Assembly: GCF_902702915.1 (NCBI RefSeq) | Contig: NZ_LR738849.1 | Span: 1,674,001-1,738,000, forward strand | Reading direction: 5' to 3' | From: Desulfovibrio sp. 86 | GTDB taxonomy: Bacteria > Desulfobacterota > Desulfovibrionia > Desulfovibrionales > Desulfovibrionaceae | DNA: 64,000 nucleotides | Shown: positions 3,319-57,735 of the stretch, piece after piece | How positions within the stretch are numbered: position 1 is the first letter of the stretch | How the letters are laid out: each line of letters opens with the position of its first letter | Notes under the pieces: generated by a model | Told to the model about the DNA's origin: nothing | Databases searched by the model: none | What the model saw: only the letters and a program-made list of their open reading frames with translations | Program-made: the position numbers and the translations under genes

Positions 3319-3392
3319 GGAAGCGCTGATTAAAGAGCCTCCTGAAAACGCGAAGCAAGTCCGCCAAACGGAAAACATCAGCGTTTCCTTAC
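3319..3392. repeat. Internally deleted copy of repeat family A
   Basis: This 74 bp element keeps both ends of family A (GGAAGCGCTGATTAAAGAG at the left, CCAAACGG then ATCAGCGTTTCC at the right). It lacks the central ~70 bp that holds the long A/T-rich inverted arms in other copies. It looks like a deletion derivative, as seen in non-autonomous elements. Confidence 0.8.
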
Positions 3393-4711: not shown

Positions 4712-4787
4712 CATGTCCGGTATGCCGGGCATGCCGGGTGGCGGTTTTTCAGCCCGTGCGCATTTTCAGCCTGTGCGCAGGCGCAGC

Positions 4788-4842
4788 GCCAAAGGAAATA
4801 ACTGCGCGTTTCCAGGAGGCTCTTTAATCAGCGCTTCTCTTA
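4788..4842. repeat. Half copy of repeat family A abutting a stop codon
   Basis: Only the right-hand arm of family A is present: AACTGCGCGTTTCCAGGAGG, then CTCTTTAATCAGCGCTTC. On the minus strand it starts directly after the stop codon (4845-4843) of the upstream TPR gene. The other half is missing or unrecognisable. Confidence 0.7.
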
Positions 4843-5538
4843 CTATTTGGTTTTGTTGGCAGGGGCCGAGGGTTTGGCGGCCTTGTCGGCGCTTTTGCCC
4901 TTGGCGTTTTCACCCGCAGCCGGAGCTGCCTTGGCGGGTGCGGCCGTGGCATTCTGGCCGGGCTGCGGCGCTTTTTCCAGTTCCTGCGTGATGGCCGCCT
5001 TGAGTTCATCGGAAGCCTTGGGGTCATGAAGACCGGCCGTCAGATGCTCTATGCCCTTGGCGGGATTTTCAAGAAAATAGATGTACAGCACGCCCAGGCT
5101 GTAGCGCACGGAGGCTTCGTCCTTGATGGCGAGCACCTTTTCCAGCGCTTCGGCGGCTTCCTTGTTGCGCCCCTGGTTGTGCATGATGACGCCAAGCAGG
5201 TACAGGGGCTTGGAGTTGCCCGCATCCAGCGTGATGGCCCGCTGTGCAAAGGTTTCAGCCGCGTCCCAGTTCTGCGCGCCGATGAGGTGCTCCACCAGGT
5301 GGATCATGGCGGTGCTGTCATTGGGGTTTTCCGCGATCTGGCGCATGAGCTTGCCGATCTGCTGGGCGTCGTCTTGCTGCCCGCCCGCCTGGGCAGCCGG
5401 GCCGGGCCGCCGCTGCTCGGTGAGGCCGGGACTTTCAAAACGCTCCTTGAGCGAAGAGACAAGCATGGTCACAAGGCCCAGGGCCAGCAAGAGAATAAGC
5501 GCGCGCGAAGACGTGGTGCGCTTGGAACTGTCAGTCAT
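4843..5538 (-). CDS. TPR protein with N-terminal membrane anchor, ccm cluster
   Basis: 231 residues from ATG 5538 (GGGAG upstream). A short basic N-terminus (MTDSSKRT) precedes one membrane segment (about residues 12-30, ALILLLALGLVTMLV). TPR units then run from about 65 to 185 (WDAAETFAQRAITLD, NKEAAEALEKVLAI). The tail is Ala/Lys/Pro-rich. The start overlaps the end of ccmD by eight bases, which indicates translational coupling and membership of the ccm operon. It resembles the TPR part of CcmH/CcmI. With no ccmG or ccmH in the cluster, it is a natural candidate to present apocytochrome to CcmF. That function is inference; the TPR fold and membrane anchor are visible. Confidence 0.8.
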   Translation of the reverse strand: MTDSSKRTTSSRALILLLALGLVTMLVSSLKERFESPGLTEQRRPGPAAQAGGQQDDAQQIGKLMRQIAENPNDSTAMIHLVEHLIGAQNWDAAETFAQRAITLDAGNSKPLYLLGVIMHNQGRNKEAAEALEKVLAIKDEASVRYSLGVLYIYFLENPAKGIEHLTAGLHDPKASDELKAAITQELEKAPQPGQNATAAPAKAAPAAGENAKGKSADKAAKPSAPANKTK

Positions 5539-5740: not shown

Positions 5741-6433
5741 TTACAGTCCTTCTTGCATCAGTCTGTTCTGCTGCAGCGCGTCGAGGCGCGCGGCCAGGTC
5801 CAGCTGGCGTTTACGAATCCACACCAGCCCGGCCCACAACAGACCGAAAGAAATTACGCAGGCTATGACCGTGAGGCGCATTTCCGGTTCCAGACCGCCG
5901 CCCTTGTTGCCGAACACGGCAGGATGGATGGAGCGCCAGATGCGGGCGGACAAAAACACCAGGGGCACGTCCAGAAAGGCCACAACGCCCACCACCGCGC
6001 AGACCACGTTGCGGCGTTGCTGCGGCAGATCGAGGCCGCGCAGCACAAGGTAGCCCGCATAGATGAACCACATGATGAGGGTAGTCGTGAGGCGTGGGTC
6101 CCACGTCCACCAGACGCCCCACGAGCGGCGCGCCCACAGCATGCCCGTCACAAGGGCGAGCCCGCTCAGTAGCACGCCTGTTTCGGCGGCGGCGGCGCAC
6201 AGCCGGTCTGCAGCGGGATTGCGACGCCACAGATAGGCTATCGAACCCAGAAAGACCACAAAAAAGCTCATAAGCGCCCACCATGCCAGAGGCAGATGAA
6301 CGTAAAAAATTTTTTGCGGCAGCCCCAGAGTCTGCTCCACAGGGGCATAGGCATAGATAAGCCACTGGCAGGCGGCGAAAGCCAGGCCGCCCAGAAGGGC
6401 CAGCAACTGCGGCAGGGCAGAAAATTTGGGCAT
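5741..6433 (-). CDS. ccmC: CcmC, haem handling protein of cytochrome c maturation
   Basis: 230 residues, six predicted membrane segments. The periplasmic tryptophan-rich WWD motif reads WGVWWTWDPRLT (residues 105-116). The flanking haem-ligand histidines of this family are present at His46 (VHLPLAW) and His170 (SIHPAVFG). CcmC binds haem at the outer face of the membrane and hands it to CcmE. The start codon overlaps the ccmB stop (TAATG). No sign of truncation. Confidence 0.95.
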   Translation of the reverse strand: MPKFSALPQLLALLGGLAFAACQWLIYAYAPVEQTLGLPQKIFYVHLPLAWWALMSFFVVFLGSIAYLWRRNPAADRLCAAAAETGVLLSGLALVTGMLWARRSWGVWWTWDPRLTTTLIMWFIYAGYLVLRGLDLPQQRRNVVCAVVGVVAFLDVPLVFLSARIWRSIHPAVFGNKGGGLEPEMRLTVIACVISFGLLWAGLVWIRKRQLDLAARLDALQQNRLMQEGL

Positions 6434-10570: not shown

Positions 10571-11049
10571 GATTACCTCATTCCTGCGGTATACGCGCTT
10601 GAACACAGGGCGGAACGCGCCGTGGACGGCGTGTCGCGCGCGTGAAAGTGTGACCCGTGGTTTTGGGTCGTCATACGCGTCTGTACGGGAAACAACCTAG
10701 ACCATTTCCGCGCGCCTGACAAGATGAGAATAATTATTGTTAGAGGGGCGAAGCAGGGTGCGGCGCGGATTTTGTGATCGTGGCACAGCGGGGGACTACC
10801 CTTTATTCCCCATCATGTGACTAGGTAAGTGGCTAATTACTTGAGACAAAAGCCGTGGCTGACGGCCCGGCGGGTCACAAGGGAATGCGCCGCAGCGGCC
10901 CGAAGGGCAGCCTGTGCGACAGTTTGGGCGAATGTTGACTGAAAGAAACTTTTTTTACGGGGGGGCTTGGGCGCGCCGGTTTTGCTGTGCGGTGGATTGC
11001 TGTGGCTGCTACTGTAGCGGTCGCGTGAAGCAATATTAATGAACAAAGG

Positions 11050-14598: not shown

Positions 14599-14675
<77 letters not shown>

Positions 14676-17100: not shown

Positions 17101-17201
17101 CGGCGCAACCTACACTAATATCACAGTAAAACCAAGGAGGGGCCCGCGTAAAATTTTATACAATCATGCATATTGGTTGAAATAAATGGGCTGCATTTTT
17201 T

Positions 17202-17358
17202 AAGGAAACGCAGATGTATTCCGCTTGGCGGACGTGCTTCACTTTTTTTGAAACAGTCGAGGTCGGAAGAGTCCACTCCTGCTTCAAAAAAAGAGCGCGC
17301 CTTGCCAAACGAAACAACTGCGCGTTTCCGGGAGCCTCTTTAACCAGTGCTTCCTTAA
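17202..17358. repeat. Repeat family A, full copy
   Basis: About 157 bp, in the orientation opposite to the copies at 32853, 36660, 45055 and 55894. It has inverted ends (AGGAAACGCAGAT and its near-complement at AACCAGTGCTTCCTT), inner arms GCTTGGCGGA and CCTTGCCAAACGAA, and a central long stem built from CTTTTTTTGAAACAG and TGCTTCAAAAAAAG. Confidence 0.85.
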
Positions 17359-24600: not shown

Positions 24601-24772
24601 CGACGGCTACCGCGAGGCGGGGCTTTCACACCACGGCGATCACGACGGCGGTTCCGGGCATTCTGGCGGCGACGCTTCTTCCGTCAGCCAGGACGCGCAC
24701 TCGGACAACACCGGCGACGATATGACCGTACTGGCGGCGCAGCACCAGATACACTCCGAGTTCGGCGGTTAG
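21656..24772 (+). CDS. Large RTX-like repeat surface protein, probable type I secretion substrate
   Basis: 1038 residues from ATG 21656 (AGGAG seven bases upstream); earlier in-frame starts would translate leader DNA. There is no signal peptide. The N-terminal ~100 residues (VLDFPTTDATLGREGDALTF, KIRLDGFYTDY, VDGQMVSGKDFFSAL, then PAAGP) are of the kind heading large Desulfovibrio type I secreted adhesins. A Gly linker (about 157-164) leads to a Gly/Asn/Asp-rich beta repeat region. Calcium-binding-like nonapeptides occur late in the protein: TGDGDDVIN, GGNGNDTLN, TGSGDDHIE, MGDGNDLFT, LGAGDDVVT, GGDGYDLLV. The C-terminus is His/Asp/Gly-rich. There are no cysteines. No ABC exporter or TolC gene is in the window. 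Its stop codon TAG is the first three bases of a repeat. Confidence 0.82.
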   Translation: MANIHLTRPQFGQQTAITNAAEDSIVLDFPTTDATLGREGDALTFTFEDGAKIRLDGFYTDYTSENTPDFIVDGQMVSGKDFFSALGQDDLMPAAGPTAATRNAHYTEHADSSLDSGIDHLGGLDWSMQTASVAQDTLATDSQLGRDDGGQGPDVPGTGGGGGGTSPAYHARLVVGSDASQSMVFQAIDENGNLVTDASQVSLAFAGGSSAYFNAPVIDPVTGLVTITLTAAGQAALAAGEKFDSVLEVTVGGKTYNMELLGNDSSSYDSAQREAETDLGGPLKGEWYDSHGKNVNGEKITMGGEGYNSVVVENTTASGNAYGALNTDITFAHDAAGKIDVSARAENGNAYGTSAYGRVGGGTITIDAGTKGDVNMGATADGGSSMALITGGDKDGSGNFYQATANVHGKDITFTAGANEKTAAGIWGAGKSTVNVQAEGDVNFSSSVTGGTVNYMATAVYTKEQATVNISGQNVSGETNAYAGSGADGTVMSSVFRTTAGTAINIDTASDGKFSATAYQETSPYDSPYTGVSWTGGRAAGFTSLGLAASGNLNQAGQGGKSAININAGDVDISATVDAASPKGTAAAIYAGYGGDVKINTSGSDNELNITADAPSWGVSIFSTNYGTTTINTGDGDDVINLNASAHNGAAAIGLATQASGQTIINGGNGNDTLNINATFTGTHTLSTDYMDTKAGAFGMNAAWGGAVNKITNVNNVNITADASGSDDGWAYGMYTRDGWGASTQNIIENTDSAITVVITAKAGTAGQAYAMYGNAGGINLIQGGSRAGDTHGDSVTLNGDIGGYINTVNTGSGDDHIEINGNLRSGTNTFNMGDGNDLFTLNGNIAGGTNKIVMGTGDSHVNIHGDVTGGTTSISLGAGDDVVTIDGHVQGKLSITGGDGYDLLVLKADSYADFIAKYDTWLQNNLSSIDVEGIHVSVNGLSAADQADLHAYLNSGHFNGYDVTYSDSTVPFSAAMADDLPDGYREAGLSHHGDHDGGSGHSGGDASSVSQDAHSDNTGDDMTVLAAQHQIHSEFGG

Positions 24773-28140: not shown

Positions 28141-28261
28141 GGCAACCTCCTCAATATCGCGTTGAAAGGTTCGCAAAAGGGCTGTGGCCCCGGCGGGTGT
28201 TCGGACTTGAGGGCTGTGTGGCCGCAGGGCCAGCGCCTTGGTTTCGCCTTCACCGCTTGCG

Positions 28262-28388
28262 CGATTGGCTGTCAAACGCCGCCCATCCTGAGCAGGCGAA
28301 AAGAAACCTTGTCCCCTCTTACCGCAGCGCGACTGTTTTCGACTTGCACGAAATTCCCCGCCAAAGGGATACAGGACAACAGGGCGCG
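28262..28388 (-). promoter_or_regulatory. Cobalamin riboswitch upstream of cbiK
   Basis: On the minus strand the core reads GGGGAATTTCGTGCAAGTCG, then ACAGTCGCGCTGCGGTAAG, then CTCAGGATGGGCGG. These correspond to the family blocks GGGAA..GGTG.AA.TCC, a CNGCGC.ACTG..GTAA-type block, and the terminal GTCAGGATACC.GCC. Their order and spacing fit. A further ~120 bases before the cbiK ATG can hold the expression platform, which I could not fold. Confidence 0.75.
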
Positions 28389-28488
28389 TCAAATGTCAAG
28401 GAGGGCGGGAGGTTGCGCCAGCCGCCACATGAGGTCCTGCACAGGGGCAGCAGCGCGGCCTTCTTGGCCGTTCAGGCCGTATTTTTCC

Positions 28489-32705: not shown

Positions 32706-32855
32706 TCAGAGCAATTCAATTTTTAAATTGTTCTGGCGGCAGCGTGAGCAGACGTTCGCTACGGAGGCGTAAGCGCAGTTTATCTCGCGGTTAAACGCCG
32801 AAGTGAGCGTGCCTCAAACGTTGAGAATGCACATGCTCAACGTTAATCTGCCCTA
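32706..32855. repeat. Repeat family B (long form 2) fused to a family A copy
   Basis: About 150 bp matching 19306-19458: an AGAGCAATT start, GGCGGCAGCGTGAGCAGACG, AGGCGTAAGCGCA, and TTGAGAATGCACATGCTCAA at the end. It runs straight into the family A copy at 32853 with no spacer. Confidence 0.8.
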
Positions 32856-32994
32856 AAGAGCCTCTTGGAAACGCGCAGTTGTTTCGTTTGGCAAGGCGCG
32901 ATCTTTTTTTGAAGCAGGAGTGGACTCTTCTGTCCTCGACTGTTTCAAAAAAAGTGAAGCAACGCCGCCAAACGGAATAAATCAGCGTTTCCCT
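32853..32994. repeat. Repeat family A, full copy, overlapping the SppA stop codon
   Basis: 142 bp: TAAAGAGCCTC, GGAAACGCGCAGTTG, TTTCGTTTGGCAAGGCGCG, the long A/T stem (TTTTTTTGAAGCAG facing CTGTTTCAAAAAAAG), GCCGCCAAACGGAATAAATC and AGCGTTTCC. Its right end touches the stop codon (32995-32993) of the peptidase gene. Confidence 0.87.
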
Positions 32995-34159
32995 AAAACT
33001 GGTATAAAAAGGCCGGAGTACGCAGGTCGGTCTGGCCGCCGTTGCCGTGAAGGCCCACAAGGGCCGCCAGCCCGCCGATGGCGTCCACATCCACGCCAAG
33101 CATGGCCGTGAGGCCACGTCCCAGCCAGTTGCCTTCCTTGGGTCGGGTCAGCAGTTTGCGGTCAACGGGCACGCCCGTCTTCTGCGCCAGCCAGCGCTGG
33201 GCCTGCTCGCGGCCGCCCATTTCGTCCACAAGGCCGAGCCTGAGCGCTTCCTGCCCGGTATAGACCTTGCCGTTGGCCAGCTTGACGACCTGATCGCGCG
33301 GCATGTTGCGGCCCTGGGCCACAATGTCCACAAACTGGGTGTACATGTCGTTGAGCACGCCCTGAAAATAGGTGCGCTGTTCGGGCGTCATGGGCCGCAT
33401 GTAGGAGGCGGCGTCCTTGTACGCGCCAACCACAAGGGTTTCCTGCCCCACGCCCACCTTGTCCATAAGGCCCTGAAGCTGGGGCACGTCCATGCGCACG
33501 CCAATGGAACCCGTCACCGTGGAGGGGTTGGCGAAAACGCGCTGCCCGGCCATGCTGACCATGAGCCCGCCGGACGCCGCCATGGAGCCCATGCTGACGG
33601 CCACGGGCATTTTTTGCGCCACCGCTTTCAGGGCGTCATAGATTTCCTGCGAGGCCGCCGCGCCGCCGCCGGGGGAATCCACACGCACAAGGATGCCCTT
33701 GACGGAAGGATTCTGCGCCACCTTGCGCAGCCATTCCAGGGTGGGTTCAGCGGAGAGTATGGGGCCGTTCACCGAAACAAGGGCGATGCGGCCGCCGCCC
33801 GTGAAGGAAGTTCCATCATCGCTTGCCTTGACCATAAGGCCGCCGATCAGGGCAAGGACCAGCAGGATGCCGCCCCAGAACACTATGGGGCGCCGTTTGC
33901 GGAAGGGGCGGCGCAGCAGGGTCTTCCATACTTCCGCCGGGATCTGGGCCAGGGGGCAGGCGGTGGCGCAACCCGCCTGCGTGAACTGCTGGCCGGACTG
34001 CTGGGCAGCTTGTTGCATGGGCTGCCCGGCGTCCTGCGCAGCGCCATTGCGGCCACTGCGGTCATTACCGCCGTTGTCGTCGTTGCCACCGTTGGTGGAA
34101 GGGCTTGGAGTCCCAATCATGGACAGGGGCTCGTCATAGGAAAATTCTTTATCACTCAC
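32993..34159 (-). CDS. sppA: Signal peptide peptidase, SppA type (short form)
   Basis: 388 residues. A Gln/Asn/Gly-rich cytoplasmic N-terminus (1-80) contains CATAC. One membrane segment spans 92-109. The serine-protease domain follows: VRVDSPGGGAAASQE, catalytic Ser196 in GSMAASGGLMVS, and catalytic Lys248 in VVGAYKDA, the Ser-Lys dyad of the SppA/SohB family. It degrades signal peptides left in the membrane. It is half the size of E. coli SppA, as in most bacteria. The Asn/Gln-rich tail before the membrane helix is unusual. The acyl-CoA synthetase gene ends 57 bases upstream. Confidence 0.9.
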   Translation of the reverse strand: MSDKEFSYDEPLSMIGTPSPSTNGGNDDNGGNDRSGRNGAAQDAGQPMQQAAQQSGQQFTQAGCATACPLAQIPAEVWKTLLRRPFRKRRPIVFWGGILLVLALIGGLMVKASDDGTSFTGGGRIALVSVNGPILSAEPTLEWLRKVAQNPSVKGILVRVDSPGGGAAASQEIYDALKAVAQKMPVAVSMGSMAASGGLMVSMAGQRVFANPSTVTGSIGVRMDVPQLQGLMDKVGVGQETLVVGAYKDAASYMRPMTPEQRTYFQGVLNDMYTQFVDIVAQGRNMPRDQVVKLANGKVYTGQEALRLGLVDEMGGREQAQRWLAQKTGVPVDRKLLTRPKEGNWLGRGLTAMLGVDVDAIGGLAALVGLHGNGGQTDLRTPAFLYQF

Positions 34160-35959: not shown

Positions 35960-36529
35960 CTACGAGTTGTAGGTCACGGCCAGAATTTCCACCGGCTCGT
36001 CACCCGCCGCGCCCACAAAGTGGGGCACGATGGAATTGTAGTAGATGGTTTCGCCGGGTTTCAGCACGTAGTTTTCGCGTCCGTAGACCACAAGCAGCGT
36101 GCCCTTGAGGACAAATATGAACTCTTCGCCCTGGTGCGAGCTGGTTTTGCGTTCACCGGCGTCAGGGAAAATGCGGATGTGGAAGGGCTCCATGTTGCGG
36201 TCGTTCTTGCCCTTGCCCAGGGGCTGATAGGTATAGCTCGGGCGGGGGATGCTGCCGGTGTGCAGGGCTTCTCCGCCTTCACAGTCATTGTTGATGCAGG
36301 CAATGATGGGGTCGCGGGTAAACTGGTCGTCCAAAAATGTTCCCAGGCGCACGCCAAGGGCGCGGGCCACCTTTTGCAAGGGGCCGATGCTGGGGTAGAT
36401 GGCATCGTTTTCCAGCTTTTGCAGGTAGTTCTGGTCAAGGCCGGTATCCCGGGCCAGTGTTTCAAGGTCAAGCTCGCGTTCTTCACGGAATGACCGTATG
36501 CGGGAACCAATGGTACGGGTAGAGGGCAT
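35960..36529 (-). CDS. XRE-family regulator with C-terminal cupin domain
   Basis: 189 residues. The HTH spans about 8-62 (IGSRIRSFREERELDLETLA, DQNYLQKLENDAIYPSIGPL). A cupin barrel spans about 110-187 (EPFHIRIFPDAG, HQGEEFIFVLKGTLLVVYG, LKPGETIYYNSIVPHFVGAA) with the metal-site pattern His...Glu...His. Such proteins sense a small ligand through the cupin and repress or activate neighbouring genes. It leads an operon with the acyl-CoA synthetase, so a fatty acid or acyl-CoA signal is plausible, though inferred. A family A repeat lies upstream. Confidence 0.92.
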   Translation of the reverse strand: MPSTRTIGSRIRSFREERELDLETLARDTGLDQNYLQKLENDAIYPSIGPLQKVARALGVRLGTFLDDQFTRDPIIACINNDCEGGEALHTGSIPRPSYTYQPLGKGKNDRNMEPFHIRIFPDAGERKTSSHQGEEFIFVLKGTLLVVYGRENYVLKPGETIYYNSIVPHFVGAAGDEPVEILAVTYNS

Positions 36530-36659
36530 GGCGGGCTCCTGACTGTGACCCGGCCAGGATGCGTTGGTGCGCTGGTTTTCCGGGCGGGTTTTTCTGAGGT
36601 GGTTGAAACGTCAATATGGGGCTCAACCTAGCTAAAAGCTGTCTCGCCCGCAAGTCTGG

Positions 36660-36812
36660 GAAGCACGGATTAAAGAGCCTCCTGGAAACGCGCAGTTATT
36701 TCGTTTGGCAAGGCGCGAACTTTTTTTGAAGCAGGAGTGGACTCTTCCGTCCTCGGCTGTTTCAAAAAAAGTGAAGCAACGCAGCCAAACGGAATAAATC
36801 AGCGTTTCCCTT
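36660..36812. repeat. Repeat family A, full copy
   Basis: About 153 bp from GAAGCACGGATTAAAGAG through TTTCGTTTGGCAAGGCGCG, the long A/T stem, and GCCAAACGGAATAAATC to AGCGTTTCCC. It lies between the divergent regulator and hypF genes, so it is in the promoter zone of both. Confidence 0.87.
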
Positions 36813-36876: not shown

Positions 36877-39693
36877 ATGAACGAAAAATGCACAGTACGG
36901 CGGGCTTTTGTGGCTTCCGGGCAGGTACAGGGCGTTGGCTTTCGCCCCTTTGTCTACAGGCTCGCGCACGAGGGCGGCCTCACGGGAACCGTGGGCAACA
37001 CCTCGGAAGGCGTGCGCATGGAAGTGCAGGGCCTTGAGCAAGAGGTGCGCCGTTTTGGCCAGCGCCTGCGGGCGGAGCTTCCCCCTCTGGCCCGTCTTAC
37101 CGGCCTGAAAGAGGAAGATCTGCCAATTGTGCGGCAGGAGGACGCCTTTGCCATTGTGCAGAGCAGCGGCCACGCCGGGCACAGCGTGCTGGTCAGCCCG
37201 GATGTGGGCGTGTGCGCCGACTGCCTGGCGGACATGGCTGATCCGCAAAATCCGCGTTACAACTATCCTTTCACCAACTGCACCAACTGCGGCCCGCGCT
37301 ATACCATCACCCGTTCCATTCCGTACGACAGGGCAGTCACGTCCATGAGCTGCTTTCCCCTGTGCCCGCGCTGCGCGGCGGAGTATGCGAACCCGGCGGA
37401 CAGGCGCTTTCATGCCCAGCCTGTGGCCTGCCCGGTCTGCGGGCCGACGCTCTGGTTTGTAAGCAAAGAAGACGCGGCGGCAGGGCGTACCTGTCCGCAA
37501 TGGGCCAGCGCGCAGTCGGGCGGCTTGCAGGCAGTCAGGCCGCAGTCGGCCAGCGTGCAGTCGGGCGGCGTGCAGCCAGAAGGGCCGCAGTCGGCCCTCT
37601 CGCAGTCGGGCGGCGTGCAGTCAACCAGCGCACAGTTGGCGCGCCCGCAGTCAGTCAGCCCGTGTTCCGCTGGCGGGTCGGGATCTGCCCCGCAGCAGGA
37701 TTGCGCGCAGGACAAGGAAACTTTGGCGCGCCTTGCCCTGGAGCGTTCGGGCCAGGTGCTGCTTGACGGCGGCATTCTGGCCATCAAGGGGCTCGGCGGC
37801 TTTCAGCTCGCCTGTGATGCCCGCAACGCCCAGGCCGTGGCGCTCTTGCGGCAGCGCAAAACCCGTCCGCACAAGCCGCTGGCGCTCATGGCCGGCGATC
37901 TTGCGATCGTCCGTTCCCTCTGTGATCTCACGCCGGAGCATGAAGCCCTGCTTGTGAGCCCGGAAAAGCCCATTGTGCTCTGTCCGCGCCGTCAGCAAGG
38001 CGAAGCGCCCTCACTGCCGCCGCAGGTGGCCCCGGATACGCGGCAGGTGGGATTCATGCTGCCCAACACCCCCCTGCACAGCGTGCTTTTTGACTGGCTG
38101 GCCGCCCGCGCGCCGCAGCCGCCCGTTCTGGTCATGACCTCGGCCAATGCGGGGGGCGAGCCCATCTGTCTTGGCAACAGGGAGGCGCTTGAGCGCTTGC
38201 CACACCTCGCGGACGCCTGGCTGCTGCACGACCGGGATATTCTGGTGCGTGTTGACGACAGCGTCATCACCCTGCAGCCGCACGCAGATCCGGCAGCGGT
38301 CGCCGCCCTTCCCGGCGCATCGCGGTCGGACAGGGGCGAACCGCTTTTTTACCGCCGCGCGCGGGGCTATGTGCCGCGCCCCGTGTTTCTGGCTGACAAC
38401 CGGGCAACGGCAGGCACGGAAGCTGCGGCGGCTGCGGTTGACGCGGCTGCTACGTCGGCTGACGGCCCAGACCCTGCCTGCGTTCTTGGCACAGGAGCCG
38501 AGCTCAAGGCCACGGTCTGCATCACGCGCGGGCAGGAAGCCTTTGTGGGGCAGCATGTGGGTGATCTGGAAAACCCGTCGGTTATGGCTTTTTACGAAGA
38601 GGTGGTCACGCATCTGGAAAAGCTGCTGGAGGTTCGCCCCCAGGCCCTTGTCTGCGACCTGCACCCCGACTTTCTTTCCACGCGCTATGCCGAAGCCCGC
38701 GCCGCGCGCGAGGGTCTGCCCCTGTGGCGTTTGCAGCATCACGCGGCCCACGCCGCCGCTGTTCTGGCCGAAAACGCCTGTTTCAGTCCTGCTCTGGCTT
38801 TGTGTCTGGACGGCACGGGCCTTGGCGACGACGGCACGGTCTGGGGCGGCGAACTGCTTGTTATGGATCTTGGCAAGCCGGAATGGCGGCGGTTGGGGCG
38901 GCTCTCCCCCTTCGCCCTGCCGGGAGGGGACGCCGCCGTGCGCGAACCGTGGCGCATAGCCCAGGGCCTGATAATCCAGAGCCTGGCAACCCCGACCCTG
39001 AAAGGCCAGGCTGCGGAATACGGTCATCAGGATGCAGCCAGCGCGCTGGCTGGCGCGCCGTGGCTGCCGGAGCATGCTTTGGCATCCCGCGCCGTGGGGG
39101 AAATGCTGGCGCGCGGCATTAATTGCCCCGCCACTTCCAGTTGCGGGCGGCTGTTTGACGCCGTGGCGGCGCAGACCGGCCTGTGCCTGACCACCACCTA
39201 TGAAGGACAGGCGGCCATACGACTGGAGGATGCGGCCAACAGGGCGCAAGGCCCGCTGGGGGCCGTGCTGGCCGGTCGCGCGCCCATGGCGGACATGCGC
39301 AAGATTCCGGGCATGATCTGGCCCGTGGGCGTGACGGAACGCGACGGCCTGCTGGAACTGGACAGCGCCGGACTTTTTGCCAGCGTAGCGCAGGGCCTTG
39401 CGCGCGGCATGCCCGTGGCCGAGGCGGCAGGGCGTTTTCATCTCAGTCTGGCGGAAGCTCTGGCGGTCATGGCGGGCAGGGCCGCCACATCGCTTGGCGT
39501 CACCACCGTGGGCCTCAGCGGCGGCGTCATGCAAAACGCCATTATGGCGCGGCTGCTGCCTCAGGCCCTGAACCATATGGGGCTGAAAGCGCTCACCCAT
39601 CATGAATTGCCGCCCGGAGACGGCGGCCTGTCCCTGGGGCAGGCCGTGTGGGGCAGAAGAATGCTGGCCGCCGCGCGCAGCACGGCCTGTTAG
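36877..39693 (+). CDS. hypF: HypF, carbamoyltransferase for [NiFe] hydrogenase maturation
   Basis: 938 residues, against about 750-780 usually. Acylphosphatase domain: about 8-95 (VQGVGFRPFVYRLA). Two zinc fingers: CADC/CTNCGPR and CPRC/CPVCG between about 110 and 190. YrdC-like domain: about 290-490 (AIKGLGGFQLACDA, KTRPHKPLALM). Kae1-like domain: about 540-930 (CDLHPDFLSTRYA, LQHHAAHAAAVL, LDGTGLGDDGTVWGG). HypF makes carbamoyl-AMP and passes the carbamoyl group to HypE for the cyanide ligands. An extra low-complexity block (about 210-268) of Gln/Ser/Gly separates the zinc and YrdC domains and is encoded by 45-bp DNA repeats. Another Ala-rich insert sits near 510-530. Confidence 0.95.
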   Translation: MNEKCTVRRAFVASGQVQGVGFRPFVYRLAHEGGLTGTVGNTSEGVRMEVQGLEQEVRRFGQRLRAELPPLARLTGLKEEDLPIVRQEDAFAIVQSSGHAGHSVLVSPDVGVCADCLADMADPQNPRYNYPFTNCTNCGPRYTITRSIPYDRAVTSMSCFPLCPRCAAEYANPADRRFHAQPVACPVCGPTLWFVSKEDAAAGRTCPQWASAQSGGLQAVRPQSASVQSGGVQPEGPQSALSQSGGVQSTSAQLARPQSVSPCSAGGSGSAPQQDCAQDKETLARLALERSGQVLLDGGILAIKGLGGFQLACDARNAQAVALLRQRKTRPHKPLALMAGDLAIVRSLCDLTPEHEALLVSPEKPIVLCPRRQQGEAPSLPPQVAPDTRQVGFMLPNTPLHSVLFDWLAARAPQPPVLVMTSANAGGEPICLGNREALERLPHLADAWLLHDRDILVRVDDSVITLQPHADPAAVAALPGASRSDRGEPLFYRRARGYVPRPVFLADNRATAGTEAAAAAVDAAATSADGPDPACVLGTGAELKATVCITRGQEAFVGQHVGDLENPSVMAFYEEVVTHLEKLLEVRPQALVCDLHPDFLSTRYAEARAAREGLPLWRLQHHAAHAAAVLAENACFSPALALCLDGTGLGDDGTVWGGELLVMDLGKPEWRRLGRLSPFALPGGDAAVREPWRIAQGLIIQSLATPTLKGQAAEYGHQDAASALAGAPWLPEHALASRAVGEMLARGINCPATSSCGRLFDAVAAQTGLCLTTTYEGQAAIRLEDAANRAQGPLGAVLAGRAPMADMRKIPGMIWPVGVTERDGLLELDSAGLFASVAQGLARGMPVAEAAGRFHLSLAEALAVMAGRAATSLGVTTVGLSGGVMQNAIMARLLPQALNHMGLKALTHHELPPGDGGLSLGQAVWGRRMLAAARSTAC
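37511..37645 (+). repeat. 45-bp tandem repeats inside hypF
   Basis: CGCAGTCGGGCGGC-type blocks start at about 37511, 37556 and 37601, exactly 45 bp apart, and each encodes a 15-residue unit holding QSGG and PQSA. The repeat is in frame, so copy-number change would lengthen or shorten the linker without breaking the gene. Confidence 0.75.
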
Positions 39694-43668: not shown

Positions 43669-44955
43669 ATGCGCATCCTGGTGATTGGTTCCGGTGGGCG
43701 GGAACACGCCCTGGTCTGGAAATTCATGCAAAGCCCCGGCGTGAAGGCGGTCTTCGCAGCGCCCGGCAACGGGGGAACCAGCAGAGAGGGCGCGGTCAAT
43801 GTGCCTGTACCTGTTGACGACCTGGACGGGCTGGTGGCCCTGGCGCGCAAAGAAAACATCGATCTTGTGATGCCCGGCCCCGAACTTCCTCTGACTCTGG
43901 GCATTACCGACCGCATGCGCGAAGCGGGCATAGCCTGTTTCGGCCCCGACAGTTACGGCGCAAAGCTCGAAGGCAGCAAGGCCTTTGCCAAGGAAATCAT
44001 GGCCAGGGCCCAGGTGCCCACGGCGCACAGCGCCGTGTTCAGCGATGCGGAAATGGCCAAAAATCATGTGGCCAAAGTGGGCGGGCCCCTGGTGGTCAAG
44101 GCCGACGGCCTGGCCGCGGGCAAGGGCGTCATCATGGCGACCGACTCTCAGGAAGCCCTGCAGGCCATTGACGACATCATGAGCGCCAGGGCCTTTGGCT
44201 CCGCTGGCGATCTTGTGGTGCTGGAAGAATGGCTTGTGGGTGAGGAAGCCTCCTTCCTGTGCCTGTGCGATGGCGAACGCGCCGTGCCGCTGCCCTCGGC
44301 CCAGGACCACAAGCGTGTTTTCGACAATGACGAAGGCCCCAATACCGGAGGCATGGGCGCGTACAGCCCCGCCCCCGTCCTGCCCGACGACATGCTGGAG
44401 GAAATGGCCGACCTCACCGTGCGGCCCATCCTGCGCGAGCTTGCCAAGGACGGCCACCCCTTTGTGGGCGTGCTGTATGCCGGGCTGATGATGACCGCCG
44501 ACGGCCCCAAGGTGCTGGAGTACAACGTGCGCTTTGGCGACCCGGAATGCCAGCCCATGCTCATGCGGCTTGAAGGCGATCTGCCCCGTATCATGCTGGA
44601 CGGCATTGCTGGCAAGCTTGACCCCACCAGTATCGGGCAAAGCGCCAAGACGGCTCTGGGCGTGGTCATGACCGCAGAAGGCTACCCCGGCGCGTACACA
44701 AAGGGGGTGCCCATTACCGGCATCAGCGAAGCGGACGCGCTGCCCGGCGTAAAGGTTTTTCACGGCGGCACGACCATCAGGGACGGCGCGCTGGTGTCCA
44801 GCGGCGGCCGCGTGCTTTGCGTGACGGCGCTGGGTGATGACCTTGAGGACGCGCAAAGGGCCGCCTATGCGGGCGTTGAGAAGATTCGCATGGATGGCGG
44901 CTTTTACCGCAAGGACATAGGGCAGAAGGGCATCAACCGGCTGAAAGGCAAATAG
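43669..44955 (+). CDS. purD: Phosphoribosylamine-glycine ligase (GARS)
   Basis: 428 residues, AAGGAG before ATG 43669. The N-domain starts MRILVIGSGGREHALVWK. GPELPLTLGI and YGAKLEGSKAFAKE follow, then the ATP-grasp part with KADGLAAGKGV, EEWLVGEEASFL, DNDEGPNTGGMGAYSPAP and EYNVRFGDPECQ (metal ligands). It joins glycine to phosphoribosylamine, step two of purine synthesis. purE follows 278 bases downstream across a family A repeat. The leader carries a terminator hairpin. Confidence 0.97.
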   Translation: MRILVIGSGGREHALVWKFMQSPGVKAVFAAPGNGGTSREGAVNVPVPVDDLDGLVALARKENIDLVMPGPELPLTLGITDRMREAGIACFGPDSYGAKLEGSKAFAKEIMARAQVPTAHSAVFSDAEMAKNHVAKVGGPLVVKADGLAAGKGVIMATDSQEALQAIDDIMSARAFGSAGDLVVLEEWLVGEEASFLCLCDGERAVPLPSAQDHKRVFDNDEGPNTGGMGAYSPAPVLPDDMLEEMADLTVRPILRELAKDGHPFVGVLYAGLMMTADGPKVLEYNVRFGDPECQPMLMRLEGDLPRIMLDGIAGKLDPTSIGQSAKTALGVVMTAEGYPGAYTKGVPITGISEADALPGVKVFHGGTTIRDGALVSSGGRVLCVTALGDDLEDAQRAAYAGVEKIRMDGGFYRKDIGQKGINRLKGK

Positions 44956-45054
44956 GTCCGCAGCCAGCAGCACGTTCACACGGAGCGCCTTCATGCCGAA
45001 GCGCTCTGGAGCGTTTTACCTTTGAAAAAGTGTAAACGCGCTAAGAAAACAGTG

Positions 45055-45192
45055 AGTAAAGAGCCTCCTGGAAACGCGTAGTTGTTTCGTTTGGCAAGGC
45101 GCGATCTTTTTTCAAGCAGGAGTGGACTCTTTCGTCCTCTGTTTCAAAAAAAGTGAAGCAAGTCCGCCAACCGGAATAAATCAGCGTTTCCC
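45055..45192. repeat. Repeat family A, full copy between purD and purE
   Basis: 138 bp from AGTAAAGAGCCTCCTGG to CAGCGTTTCCCT. One central arm is shortened (CTTTTTTCAAGCAGG; GTCCTCTGTTTC lacks the GACT present elsewhere). It probably lies inside the pur transcript as a folded spacer. Confidence 0.85.
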
Positions 45193-45233: not shown

Positions 45234-45731
45234 ATGGCGCAAGTAGTCATATTGATGGGTTCGCAGTCTGATGAAGACAAGGTCAGCCCCTGTGTTGAAG
45301 TGCTGAAAAGCCTGGGTGTAAGCTGTGTCATTACGGTCAGTTCCGCCCACCGCACCCCTGAACGCACGGAAAGGCTGGTGAGCGAGCACGAAGCCGCAGG
45401 CGCACAGGTATTTATCTGCGCGGCGGGCATGGCGGCGCATCTGGCCGGGGCCGTGGCCGCGCGCACCACGCGCCCTGTCATAGGCATTCCCGTGTCCAGC
45501 GTGGCCCTTGGCGGCATGGACGCCCTGCTGGCCACTGTGCAGATGCCCCCAGGATTCCCCGTGGCCACCGTGGCTCTGGACAAGGCCGGAGCGCGCAACG
45601 CCGCCTGGCTTGCCGCCCAGATTCTGGCTCTGACGGATCCTGCCCTTGCCGACAGGATCAAGGCCGCCCGCGCGAAAATGCGGGACGACGTGGAAAAGGC
45701 CGGCGAAGAAATCACCCGCAAATACGCCTGA
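45234..45731 (+). CDS. purE: N5-carboxyaminoimidazole ribonucleotide mutase
   Basis: 165 residues. MGSQSDEDKV near the N-terminus, SSAHRTPERT (catalytic His), the AAGMAAHLAGAVAARTTRPV loop, and PVSSVALGGMDALLATVQMP are the class I PurE signature. It moves the carboxylate of N5-CAIR to make CAIR. The mutase form normally needs PurK; none is visible in the window. The ATG at 45234 follows AGAGGATACGAC. It lies on the same strand as purD. Confidence 0.96.
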   Translation: MAQVVILMGSQSDEDKVSPCVEVLKSLGVSCVITVSSAHRTPERTERLVSEHEAAGAQVFICAAGMAAHLAGAVAARTTRPVIGIPVSSVALGGMDALLATVQMPPGFPVATVALDKAGARNAAWLAAQILALTDPALADRIKAARAKMRDDVEKAGEEITRKYA

Positions 45732-55863: not shown

Positions 55864-55893
55864 GATTCAAGAATACAATGAGGTCTGTACCTA

Positions 55894-56046
55894 AGGAAGC
55901 ACTGATTAAAGATCCTCCTGGAAACGCGCAGTTATTTCGTTTGGCAAGGCGCGATATTTTTTTGAAGCAGGAGTGGACTCTTCCGTCCTCGACTGTTTCA
56001 AAAAAAGTGAAGCAAGTCCGCCAAACGGAATAAATCAGCGTTTCCT
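55894..56046. repeat. Repeat family A, full copy, abutting the antiporter stop codon
   Basis: About 153 bp from GGAAGCACTGATTAAAG to AATAAATCAGCGTTTCC with the full central stem. GGAAGCACTGATT at one end is the near-exact complement of AATCAGCGTTTCC at the other. The antiporter stop (56049-56047) touches its right end. Confidence 0.9.
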
Positions 56047-57735
56047 TTAGTCCAGCTTGAGGCGAACCCTTTCAAGCTCCGTCTGCACAAAGGCTTCCGG
56101 CGAACCAAGGTAGCGCAGCAGATATTCGGACATGCCCAGCGCCACTTCGCGTTCGCCGCTGAACACGGCGGTAACGCCCTGCTGGCGCAGCTTGCGCGCG
56201 TCGCGCGCAAAGGACGTGTGCACAAGGATGCGCACATCGGGGTTGACGGCGCTGGCAATGGCCGCCACATCCGAGGCCGGTATGCTGGGCGTGGTCAAAA
56301 GCAGGGCTTCGGCCCTTTCAAGGCCGGCCTCGCGCAGCACCTCGGCCTGGCTGGCGTCGCCGTGAATGATGGGCAGGCCCTTGCCGCGTTCCTTGCGCAC
56401 GGTGTCGATGTTCATTTCCACCACCACGGGCGTGATGCCGCTCTCGCGCAAAATGCTGCAACAGCTCCGGCCCACGGGGCCGTAACCGATGATCACAACA
56501 TGGGGCTTGCCGTCATCCGCTGTTGTGACGGGCGGGCTTTCTGCGGGTGCGCCGTTTTTGCGTTTACCCTCGATCCAGCGCGCCACGCTTTCAAGCTTGC
56601 GGAAAATCAAGGGGTTCAGCGTAATGGAAATCATGGCCGCCGGAATGATGGCATTGTTGACCCTGGCGTCAAAAATGCCGAGGCTGATGCCCATGGCAGC
56701 GAGAATAAAGGAAAATTCGCCGATCTGCGAGAGCGAGGCCGAAACAGCCAGGCCCAGCCGCAAGGGCTTGCGAAACAGGGTGGTCATGACCAGCGCGCCC
56801 AGAGGCTTGACCACCATGATGACAAAGAGAGTTACGAGCATGAGGGGCCAGTCCGTAAGCAGGGCCACGGGATCAAAGAGCATGCCCACTGAAACGAAAA
56901 AGAGCACCGCAAAGGCGTCGCGCAGGGGCAGGGCCTCTGCGGCGGCGCGCGCGCTGAACTCGGACTGTCCCACCACCATGCCCGCCAGAAAAGCCCCCAG
57001 GGCCATGCTGGCGTCAAAGACGTAGGCGGCCGCCACGGCGATGCCGAGGGCCAGGGCTATGACGGCCAGGGTAAAGAGGTCGCGCGTGCCCGTGCGGGCC
57101 ACATAGCCCAGAAACAGGGGGATAAGCTTCTGCCCCACAATGAGGGTAAAGGCCGTAAGCCCGGCCAGTTTGAGCAGGGTGAAGCCAAGGGCGCTCCAGA
57201 ATTCGCCGCCGGGGCTGAGCACGGCGGGCAGCAGCACCAGCAGCAGGATGGTGAAGATGTCCTCCACCACCAGCCAGCCCAGGGCCACGTGCCCCGTATG
57301 GGTGTGGAGCTGGTGATTGTCGGTGAGAACGCGGGTGAGCACCACGGTGCTTGCCACGGATATGGCCATGCCGAAGATGGCCGAGGACATCAGGGAAAAG
57401 CCGAAGAAATAGTGCAGCAAGACCATACTGGCCAGGGTGGCGGCGGAAATCTGCACGGCAGCGCCGCTGAGGGCTATGGTCCCCACGGCCAGAAGATCCT
57501 TGAGGTGAAAGTGCAGGCCCACGCCGAACATGAGCAAAATGACGCCGATTTCAGCGCATTGGGCCGCCGTGGAGGCGTCGGCCTCGAATCCGGGCGAATA
57601 CGGCCCCACCAGAATGCCTGCCAGCAGATAGCCCACAAGCGGCGAAAGGCGCAGCTTCTGGGTGATGAAGCCCAGGACCATGGCTGCGGAAAGGCCGCCC
57701 GCAAGGGTCAGTATCAGGTCAGTCTGGTGTTCCAC
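56047..57735 (-). CDS. Monovalent cation:proton antiporter with TrkA-N domain (KefB/YbaL type)
   Basis: 562 residues. About 12 membrane segments (1-385) carry CPA2 family motifs: LGFITQKLRLSPLVGYLLAG, MFGVGLHFHLKDL, GWLVVEDIFTILLL and ASLSQIGEFSFILA. From about residue 412 a Rossmann RCK_N domain (HVVIIGYGPVGRSC, VVEMNIDTV, HGDASQAEVL) binds a nucleotide and gates transport. The C-terminal TrkA-C domain is missing. It probably exchanges K+ or Na+ for H+ in the inner membrane. It is last in the operon with hom, the ATP-grasp gene and yjbQ, three bases after yjbQ. Confidence 0.92.
   Translation of the reverse strand: MEHQTDLILTLAGGLSAAMVLGFITQKLRLSPLVGYLLAGILVGPYSPGFEADASTAAQCAEIGVILLMFGVGLHFHLKDLLAVGTIALSGAAVQISAATLASMVLLHYFFGFSLMSSAIFGMAISVASTVVLTRVLTDNHQLHTHTGHVALGWLVVEDIFTILLLVLLPAVLSPGGEFWSALGFTLLKLAGLTAFTLIVGQKLIPLFLGYVARTGTRDLFTLAVIALALGIAVAAAYVFDASMALGAFLAGMVVGQSEFSARAAAEALPLRDAFAVLFFVSVGMLFDPVALLTDWPLMLVTLFVIMVVKPLGALVMTTLFRKPLRLGLAVSASLSQIGEFSFILAAMGISLGIFDARVNNAIIPAAMISITLNPLIFRKLESVARWIEGKRKNGAPAESPPVTTADDGKPHVVIIGYGPVGRSCCSILRESGITPVVVEMNIDTVRKERGKGLPIIHGDASQAEVLREAGLERAEALLLTTPSIPASDVAAIASAVNPDVRILVHTSFARDARKLRQQGVTAVFSGEREVALGMSEYLLRYLGSPEAFVQTELERVRLKLD

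Follow-up and report, generated by a model that had tools for sequence, protein, structure and literature searches.

What is the non-coding repeat at 55895-56045 (plus strand) of the DNA analyzed here, and why does it lie one base from the end of a gene? The window, as the whole 64-kb stretch is called below, comprises bases 1,674,001-1,738,000 of the host genome (G000), a single contig of 3.46 Mb. The nearest named relative, Desulfovibrio sp. MES5, has DNA about 93% identical over the longest common stretches. A preliminary description, made from the letters of the window, listed seven copies of the repeat and likened it to a MITE or a BIME-like element mobilized in trans. It added that conservation of the copies at the same loci would point to a structural RNA instead. 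The answer proposed here is that the repeat probably belongs to a structure-conserved, stop-codon-seeking MITE superfamily. In other words, it would be a non-autonomous DNA transposon of about 151 bp, with a body folded as a single long hairpin. The usual definition of a MITE rests on ends that stay constant, with an interior free to vary. This one is unusual in being set precisely, and in a preferred direction, on stop codons, and in having a core fold whose conservation reaches far past the ends. No description of the element was found in the open-licence literature searched, which is not proof that it is unpublished.

Anatomy and Fold of the Element

The standard copy is 151 bp long, has no evident coding capacity and is usually flanked by YTAR-like tetranucleotides. 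Like a MITE it has terminal inverted repeats (GGAAGCRCTGATT and AATCAGCGTTTCC), and its ends can also be written GGAAGCRCTGATTA. The preliminary description was right that the ends are inverted, but they are not a simple pair. The left end bears the terminal motif twice, an outer one and a second one 25 bp further in, and in the main hairpin the partner of the right end is the inner motif, not the outer. Bases 1-25 contain the outer end motif and the next 126 form one long hairpin on either strand. In the named copy, 55895-55919 (+) is the outer left segment, which holds the outer terminal repeat GGAAGCACTGATT and is not part of the main hairpin; the 126-nt hairpin spans 55920-56045 (+). The hairpin consists of an outer stem, a first internal loop, an inner stem, a second internal loop and the tip GGAC-TCTTCC-GTCC, in that order. 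In the first internal loop an AAGG side lies opposite a side with ACGC-type letters, which reads GCAAGTCC in the named copy and GCAACGCC in the consensus. The fold beats each of 200 shuffles on both strands (plus strand z -7.0 as RNA and -4.8 as DNA, minus strand z -5.5 as RNA).

Two candidate identities were dropped. One is a known Rfam RNA family. At the gathering score, Rfam finds nothing in the window but a tRNA and a cobalamin riboswitch (at 14602-14675 and 28175-28398, respectively, both on the minus strand). Six order-level loci, searched at E up to 1, give four microRNA-family matches, all of them in one locus (L171) and below the gathering score, and seven phylum-level loci give no match at E up to 0.1. 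The second is an intrinsic terminator. A stem followed by a T run is absent inside the element at the two copies scanned.

Copies in the Window

All seven copies listed earlier are real, and their coordinates have been refined. The named copy, a full one of 151 bp, is preceded by CTAA (55891-55894), which reads as a YTAR target, and is followed by TTTA (56046-56049), which differs from the left flank. The TTTA contains the TAA stop codon (56049-56047, minus strand) of a Na+/H+ exchanger-type gene (56047-57735), one base from the element. A copy without the outer left end (32844-32992, +) has its right end against the TAG stop codon (32993-32995) of an S49-peptidase gene (32993-34159, -). A full copy at 36659-36809 (+) separates two divergent genes, 35960-36529 (-) and hypF (36877-39693, +), and faces the 5' side of each. 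Another, of 147 bp (45045-45191, +), has a purD-like gene (43669-44955, +) on one side and a purE-like gene (45234-45731, +) on the other. A further full copy (17204-17354, -) is bordered by an exact TTAA duplication at 17200-17203 and 17355-17358. The left half of a copy occupies about 4780-4837 (-).

The remaining copy (3319-3388, +) is short. It had been taken for a 74-bp deletion derivative that keeps both ends, one sign of a MITE. It is 70 bp long with TTAC on both sides, and the relative G093 has a full-length element at the orthologous site with identical TTAC flanks. Judging from this comparison, the short copy is a local internal deletion that occurred in place and not a mobile short form. 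Therefore, the argument from deletion derivatives to a MITE fails.

The window has other repeats of its own. A second dispersed family (TTAGAGCA...TGCTCTAA) is present at 24769, 25904, 43431, 60961 and elsewhere, and near 6403 of locus L245 it lies directly inside a left-end motif of the element. Intergenic GTGGGGGAGGGACCCTTTTGCAAAAGGGTC hairpins are repeated at 11038, 20812, 24839, 45758 and 55790. Within hypF, repeats with a 15-bp period (37495-37674) separate the zinc-finger and YrdC-like parts.

Copy Number and Mobility

The family proved to be far larger than the window. With up to two mismatches allowed, the 19-mer TTTCGTTTGGCAAGGCGCG occurs at 110 sites of the host genome, 55 on each strand, whereas its backward control occurs at none. 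The window and 91 further loci of the same genome account for 105 located hits, one of which (L031) is the edge of the copy in L117. Statistics on the ends use 82 of the 105, the other 23 having been set aside because an end is lost, diverged or cut off. These 82 full copies average 94.4% to the consensus.

Both flanks have the consensus YTAR, and the target-site duplications sought after the preliminary description are 4 bp long. Identical 4-bp flanks are found in 28 of the 82 copies, compared with a mean of 6.8 and a maximum of 15 in 2000 shuffles; the other 54 do not have an identical pair. Agreement between the flanks peaks at the two variable positions of YTAR (57 and 62 of 82, about 33 expected).

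Empty sites have also been found in sister genomes, for two copies in a 6-kb stretch of G000 (L085). Copy 1 is missing from both G093 and G055, where the empty site reads CAAG; in G000 the two flanks of the copy read CAAG and CTAG. Copy 2 is missing from G055, which has a single AAAA where G000 has AAAA twice; in G093 it is present with its left part missing. Copy 3 is common to G000 and G093. At the site of the named copy, a relative that is 85% identical (L033) has no element, in a spacer that is otherwise rearranged.

The occurrence of the element is patchy. Sites matching the right-end pattern number 116 in G000, 125 in G093, 260 in G118, 73 in G128, 48 in G055, 29 in G045, 22 in G119, five in G133, three in G285 and one in G043. 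This makes 10 of the 17 genomes tested, and six of the seven without the pattern belong to the same genus. Within the family, BLAST detects the element in 11 genomes out of 288, one of them G000 itself. It is clear that the element moves as a unit, duplicates a 4-bp YTAR target and has been mobile recently. With its target duplications, empty sites, about 110 dispersed copies and patchy distribution, it behaves as the MITE first proposed.

Placement and Direction at Stop Codons

Each end of a copy was tested for a coding stretch heading to it, with at least 30 codons and a codon-usage score of at least 15 (based on window genes). At the right end, the three bases immediately outside the element are the stop codon of a convergent gene in 29 of 82 copies. 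The left end lies exactly at a stop codon in three of 82, a direction bias with p 3e-6. Altogether 32 of 82 copies are at a stop codon (p 2e-8) compared with an expectation of about 14%, which is the share of stop codons among YTAR sites outside coding DNA (11 of 78 in the window) and rests on 40 approximate gene calls from one window, one of them with a wrong end. For at least 50 of the 82, neither end coincides exactly with a stop codon. Within the window, two of the five long copies (32844 and 55895) are at a stop codon or one base off. Those at 17204, 36659 and 45045 are not, the second being placed between divergent genes and the third before the purE-like gene.

Similar placement is seen in relatives from the order. 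There, a convergent coding stretch was required to have at least 40 codons, a score of at least 12 and its end within 40 nt. Such a stop lies within 40 nt of the right end in 41 of 53 copies and of the left end in 11 of 53, although several of these are orthologous sites and not independent. The 53 are what is left of 62 copies after removal of nine near-duplicates, tandem or doubtful ones. At phylum-level loci, judged by open frames of at least 100 codons with no coding score, the stop-codon placement is less regular.

The element therefore prefers gene ends, with its right end on a convergent stop codon in about one-third of copies. YTAR holds TAA or TAG on both strands, so its duplication restores the stop codon and the reading frame is not lengthened. 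What if the bias arose because badly placed copies are lost with age? This idea is weakened by the highest-scoring third of copies by profile, which is equally biased (right end at a stop in nine of 27, left end in one of 27). Indeed, the right-end share does not change with score (9/27, 12/27, and 8/28 in the three thirds). Selection that acts fast could still have caused the direction bias.

A Core Conserved Across the Order and the Phylum

The next question is how far the fold extends beyond the family of near-identical copies. An alignment of eighteen diverged copies (A1) has changes on both sides in 20 of 37 pairs, and 94.9% of its cells are paired, compared with 42-51% when the alignment is slid. 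Applied to 348 genomes of the order, the covariance model built from it (R1) has matches in 103 with a cutoff of E 1e-3 and in 55 with a cutoff of E 1e-10, counts that take in the genomes used to build the model. In all, 62 order-level copies were read (17, then 45). Most share ...GGCAAGGAAGA...[stem]...GCAGGGAGTGTACTCTTAGGTACTCGACCGGA...[stem]...TCTGACGCAGCC... and differ in their stems. Fitting 38 sequences to R1, which favours the structure of that model, gave alignment A4, with double changes in 34 of 37 pairs and 93% of cells paired. Its model (R2), run with an E cutoff of 1e-6 against 395 genomes sampled over the phylum, matches 58, which represent 31 of 245 genera, and 47 of these 58 genomes fall outside the family of the window. 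Alignment A5 adds phylum-level copies and has 34 rows, of which two are wrong-strand; here, too, double changes are seen in 34 of 37 pairs, with 91% of cells paired. Slid controls over the three alignments have 37-51% of cells paired.

Some of these scores reflect shape alone. Read on its wrong strand, a true copy is still a hairpin but its loops are wrong, and in that form it can reach 64 bits with R1 and 48 bits with R2, so weak model matches are doubtful. Estimated from the listed bits and E values, these levels correspond to E of about 2e-10 (R1) and 4e-9 (R2) per whole genome. The best match is weaker than that in 48 of the 103 order genomes (E >1e-10) and in 10 of the 58 phylum genomes (E >4e-9). 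The loops provide another line of support. CAAGG on the 5' side and an ACGC-type loop on the 3' side are present in 35 of 38 order-level copies and their reverse complements in one of 38, a count that omits 24 of the 62 copies (mostly near-duplicates and copies of the element type, at least two of the 24 being without CAAGG). Among phylum-level copies the loops are present in 20 of 21 and the reverse complements in none of 21. These motifs were defined after the sequences had been viewed and are also inside the models, which makes them support and not an independent test.

The ends tell a different story. Copies from another family of the order (found in G325 and others) are nearly identical to one another; they start AGTTTCC and end GAAAACT, and have 4-bp duplications of their own, the flanks being identical in eight of nine copies read by eye. 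Other phylum members start GAGACCTTTGAAAAA. In G240 the end is GGAAGTACTGATTAA and the stems are very different, with an exact CTAG duplication at one of two copies. The core (stems of set length, two internal loops and a tip hairpin) is thus conserved by paired changes in relatives across the order and the phylum. What changes around it is the sequence of the stems, the terminal repeats and the target sites. A folded core that recurs with rewritten stems suggests that the shape itself is under selection.

Some hairpins of the wider family were met along the way. In a 77% relative, the exchanger gene that adjoins the named copy is likewise followed by a hairpin of this family, though a far-diverged one (L055, about 4796-4932). 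Old-type hairpins stand in tandem in L214 (893-1288) and in G050 (C1:14624-15385), three and five in a row, respectively.

What if the hairpin core is itself the unit of selection? In this scenario it would be a phylum-wide mobile structured nucleic acid, the bacterial counterpart of a SINE or of an attC site. A dedicated protein would read both loops, and several unrelated transposon ends (YTAR/GGAAGC, AGTTTTCATCCGG and GAGACCTTTGAAAAA) would carry it. It would be steered to stop codons directionally, by sensing either the end of translation or a folded single strand. This is an enticing idea that we put forward tentatively, as a possibility with the odds against it.

Selection on Resident Copies

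It is one thing for a fold to persist between lineages and another for each copy to be maintained. Within G000, departures from pairing comprise 97 G.T, 117 A.C, 124 others and 23 positions changed on both sides and still paired. Resident copies thus decay almost freely, with little regard to pairing, and most are not under structural selection. Between lineages, on the strand as written, G.T exceeds A.C by 40:11 in A1 and by 76:28 in A4, although two conserved positions supply 41 of the 76.

One old copy is different. It lies at the stop codon of a leuD-like gene, between this and leuB and 3' of a leuC-like gene. R2 matches it in G036, G038, G040, G058, G059 and G078, i.e., at six of the 29 loci searched. 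Over these six genomes the copy is 91.2% identical, compared with 72.2% for third positions of leuD and 77.2% for the next 80 nt; in G058 the inner stem is altered on both sides. This copy is more conserved than its surroundings, so at least one old copy, that at leuD, is now kept in place by selection. The preliminary description had set same-locus conservation against mobility. In part this applies to an older relative, the one at leuD, and the mobile and structural readings are both partly right.

Could the element be primarily a cis-acting mRNA element (a 3'-end stabilizer, an RNase III substrate or an insulator against re-initiation) for which spread by transposition is secondary? A position directly 3' of stop codons in a fixed direction would make sense for such an element, as would the copy conserved inside the leuD-leuB pair of six genomes. 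However, the distribution is patchy, with the right-end pattern absent from six genomes of the genus, and even at leuD the copy is matched at so few of the loci searched. Moreover, the excess of G.T over A.C is on the strand opposite the leuD mRNA, with the reservation that two positions give 41 of the 76. This explanation is unlikely.

A plain MITE would be an internal-deletion derivative of an IS, moved in trans, whose fold is an unselected by-product of long inverted repeats. MITE-type ends, target duplications and empty sites are what it predicts, and the decay of pairing inside G000 is about neutral. Nevertheless, compensated stems and constant loops over an order and a phylum are unexpected of a by-product, as is a core retained while the terminal repeats differ. 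Template-switching repair in palindromes could imitate some of the covariation but hardly the conserved loops, and at leuD the loops have been conserved at a single site since before the hosts diverged. We consider this explanation quite unlikely.

Search for a Transposase and a Source

The preliminary description called for an IS or RAYT/TnpA-REP transposase with matching ends, and none was found in the three families searched (PF01609, PF05598 and Y1, PF01797). The one PF01609 gene of G000 is flanked by different terminal repeats of its own. Nine PF01609 places in eight relatives include none with element ends on both sides; two of them (L078 and L080) have one end-like motif nearby. PF05598, searched in 11 genomes, gave none. 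A scan for the ends over 339 sequences (1.3 Mb) found no clear autonomous copy. Outside profile matches it returned six places: L078, L080, two G240 elements and two with another repeat beside the end. As for a source outside the chromosome, plasmids (three queries) and phages (one query) have no similar DNA at E 0.01, the exact 19-mer is absent from viral contigs and the named contigs L034-L054 have no R2 match.

The IS5 group, which has a 4-bp YTAR target and a GGAA... end, resembles the element in both respects. The YTAR duplication is thus common to the element, the IS5 group and the MITEs of that group. However, no IS5-type transposase with the ends of the element was found (PF01609 in nine genomes, PF05598 in 11).

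The BIME/RAYT alternative fared no better. It holds that the element is of the REP/BIME type and is moved by a Y1 (RAYT) transposase. To our knowledge, REP/BIME elements make no target duplication, and in this the 4-bp duplication of the present element differs. REPs, too, occur no more than 20 bp from the 3' ends of genes, and their GTAG ends are a frequent source of a TAG stop (PMC3733652). REP/BIME units (GTAG, CGTC) lie near gene 3' ends and may supply the stop codon (PMC3733652). Such units have 20-40 bp, with a Y1 transposase for the GTAG kind, whereas the present element has 151 bp and different terminal repeats. G000 has six Y1 matches. One (L024, gene at C1:33578-33934) lies about 0.9 kb from a copy at C1:32530-32685, which is single and not a flanking pair, and its proximity is probably due to chance. 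Across 16 genomes, one of 30 Y1 loci carries a copy, cut by the locus edge. All this makes such a mover highly improbable. Three Y1 transposase genes stand in tandem in G000 (C1:972806-974568), at a spacing of 703 bp.

Equally improbable is an attC-like recombination site. Such a site, lying after the stop codon of a cassette gene, would serve a structure-specific recombinase as a folded single strand, and it would suit the place, the direction, the variable stems with constant unpaired bases and the G.T strand bias. However, the 4-bp duplications and two empty sites show that the hairpin was inserted alone.

Comparison with Known Systems

Is there a precedent for such an element? YPAL is reported to insert closely downstream of stop codons (De Gregorio 2006), and here 29 of 82 right ends lie exactly at a stop. 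According to PMC2229807, YPAL (RU-2) of Yersinia is a palindromic mobile repeat of about 168 bp with target duplications and empty sites, co-expressed with upstream genes. Its inverted repeats are internal and its duplications range from 3 to 26 bp (PMC2229807), whereas the present element has terminal repeats and a 4-bp YTAR duplication. Also unlike YPAL, this duplication often falls exactly on the stop codon and the core is conserved beyond one family. YPAL and REPs are nevertheless precedents for placement at 3' ends.

ERIC, RUP and Correia/NEMIS are mobile repeats of about 100-160 bp with terminal repeats, target duplications and long stem-loops, as summarized in part of PMC2229807. Their termini are 5'-TA-3' in that summary, instead of YTAR as here, and it makes no mention of phylum-wide conserved loops, which the present element has. 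Sequencing-resistant strong hairpins at coding-region junctions have been described for Desulfovibrio ND132 and D. africanus, some of them alike and suggested to be terminators (PMC3409199, in the section concerned). They are likened to the element by description only and may or may not belong to the present family. The ribosome termination structure (RTS) is a general folding signal, whereas the present element is a homologous mobile element.

Implications

Under the favoured reading, a stop-codon-seeking MITE with a conserved structure, a transposase resident elsewhere or since lost would move the element in trans. Its loops would be read by a protein, either one of the host's or one belonging to the transposition machinery, and the fold would be kept for that reason. 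A hairpin right behind a stop codon might be harmless or even useful in the mRNA, by protecting the 3' end or by isolating the next gene.

A stop-codon target is a simple route to harmlessness, since the target site, which each insertion duplicates, has a stop codon on either strand. Should the direction bias be due to targeting, not selection, the transposition machinery must connect with the end of transcription or translation. Covariance models of the element would aid the annotation of intergenic regions in these bacteria. Finally, the interior fold of this element outlasts its ends and stems, both of which are rewritten, so that the old question of whether folding matters to a MITE becomes directly testable.
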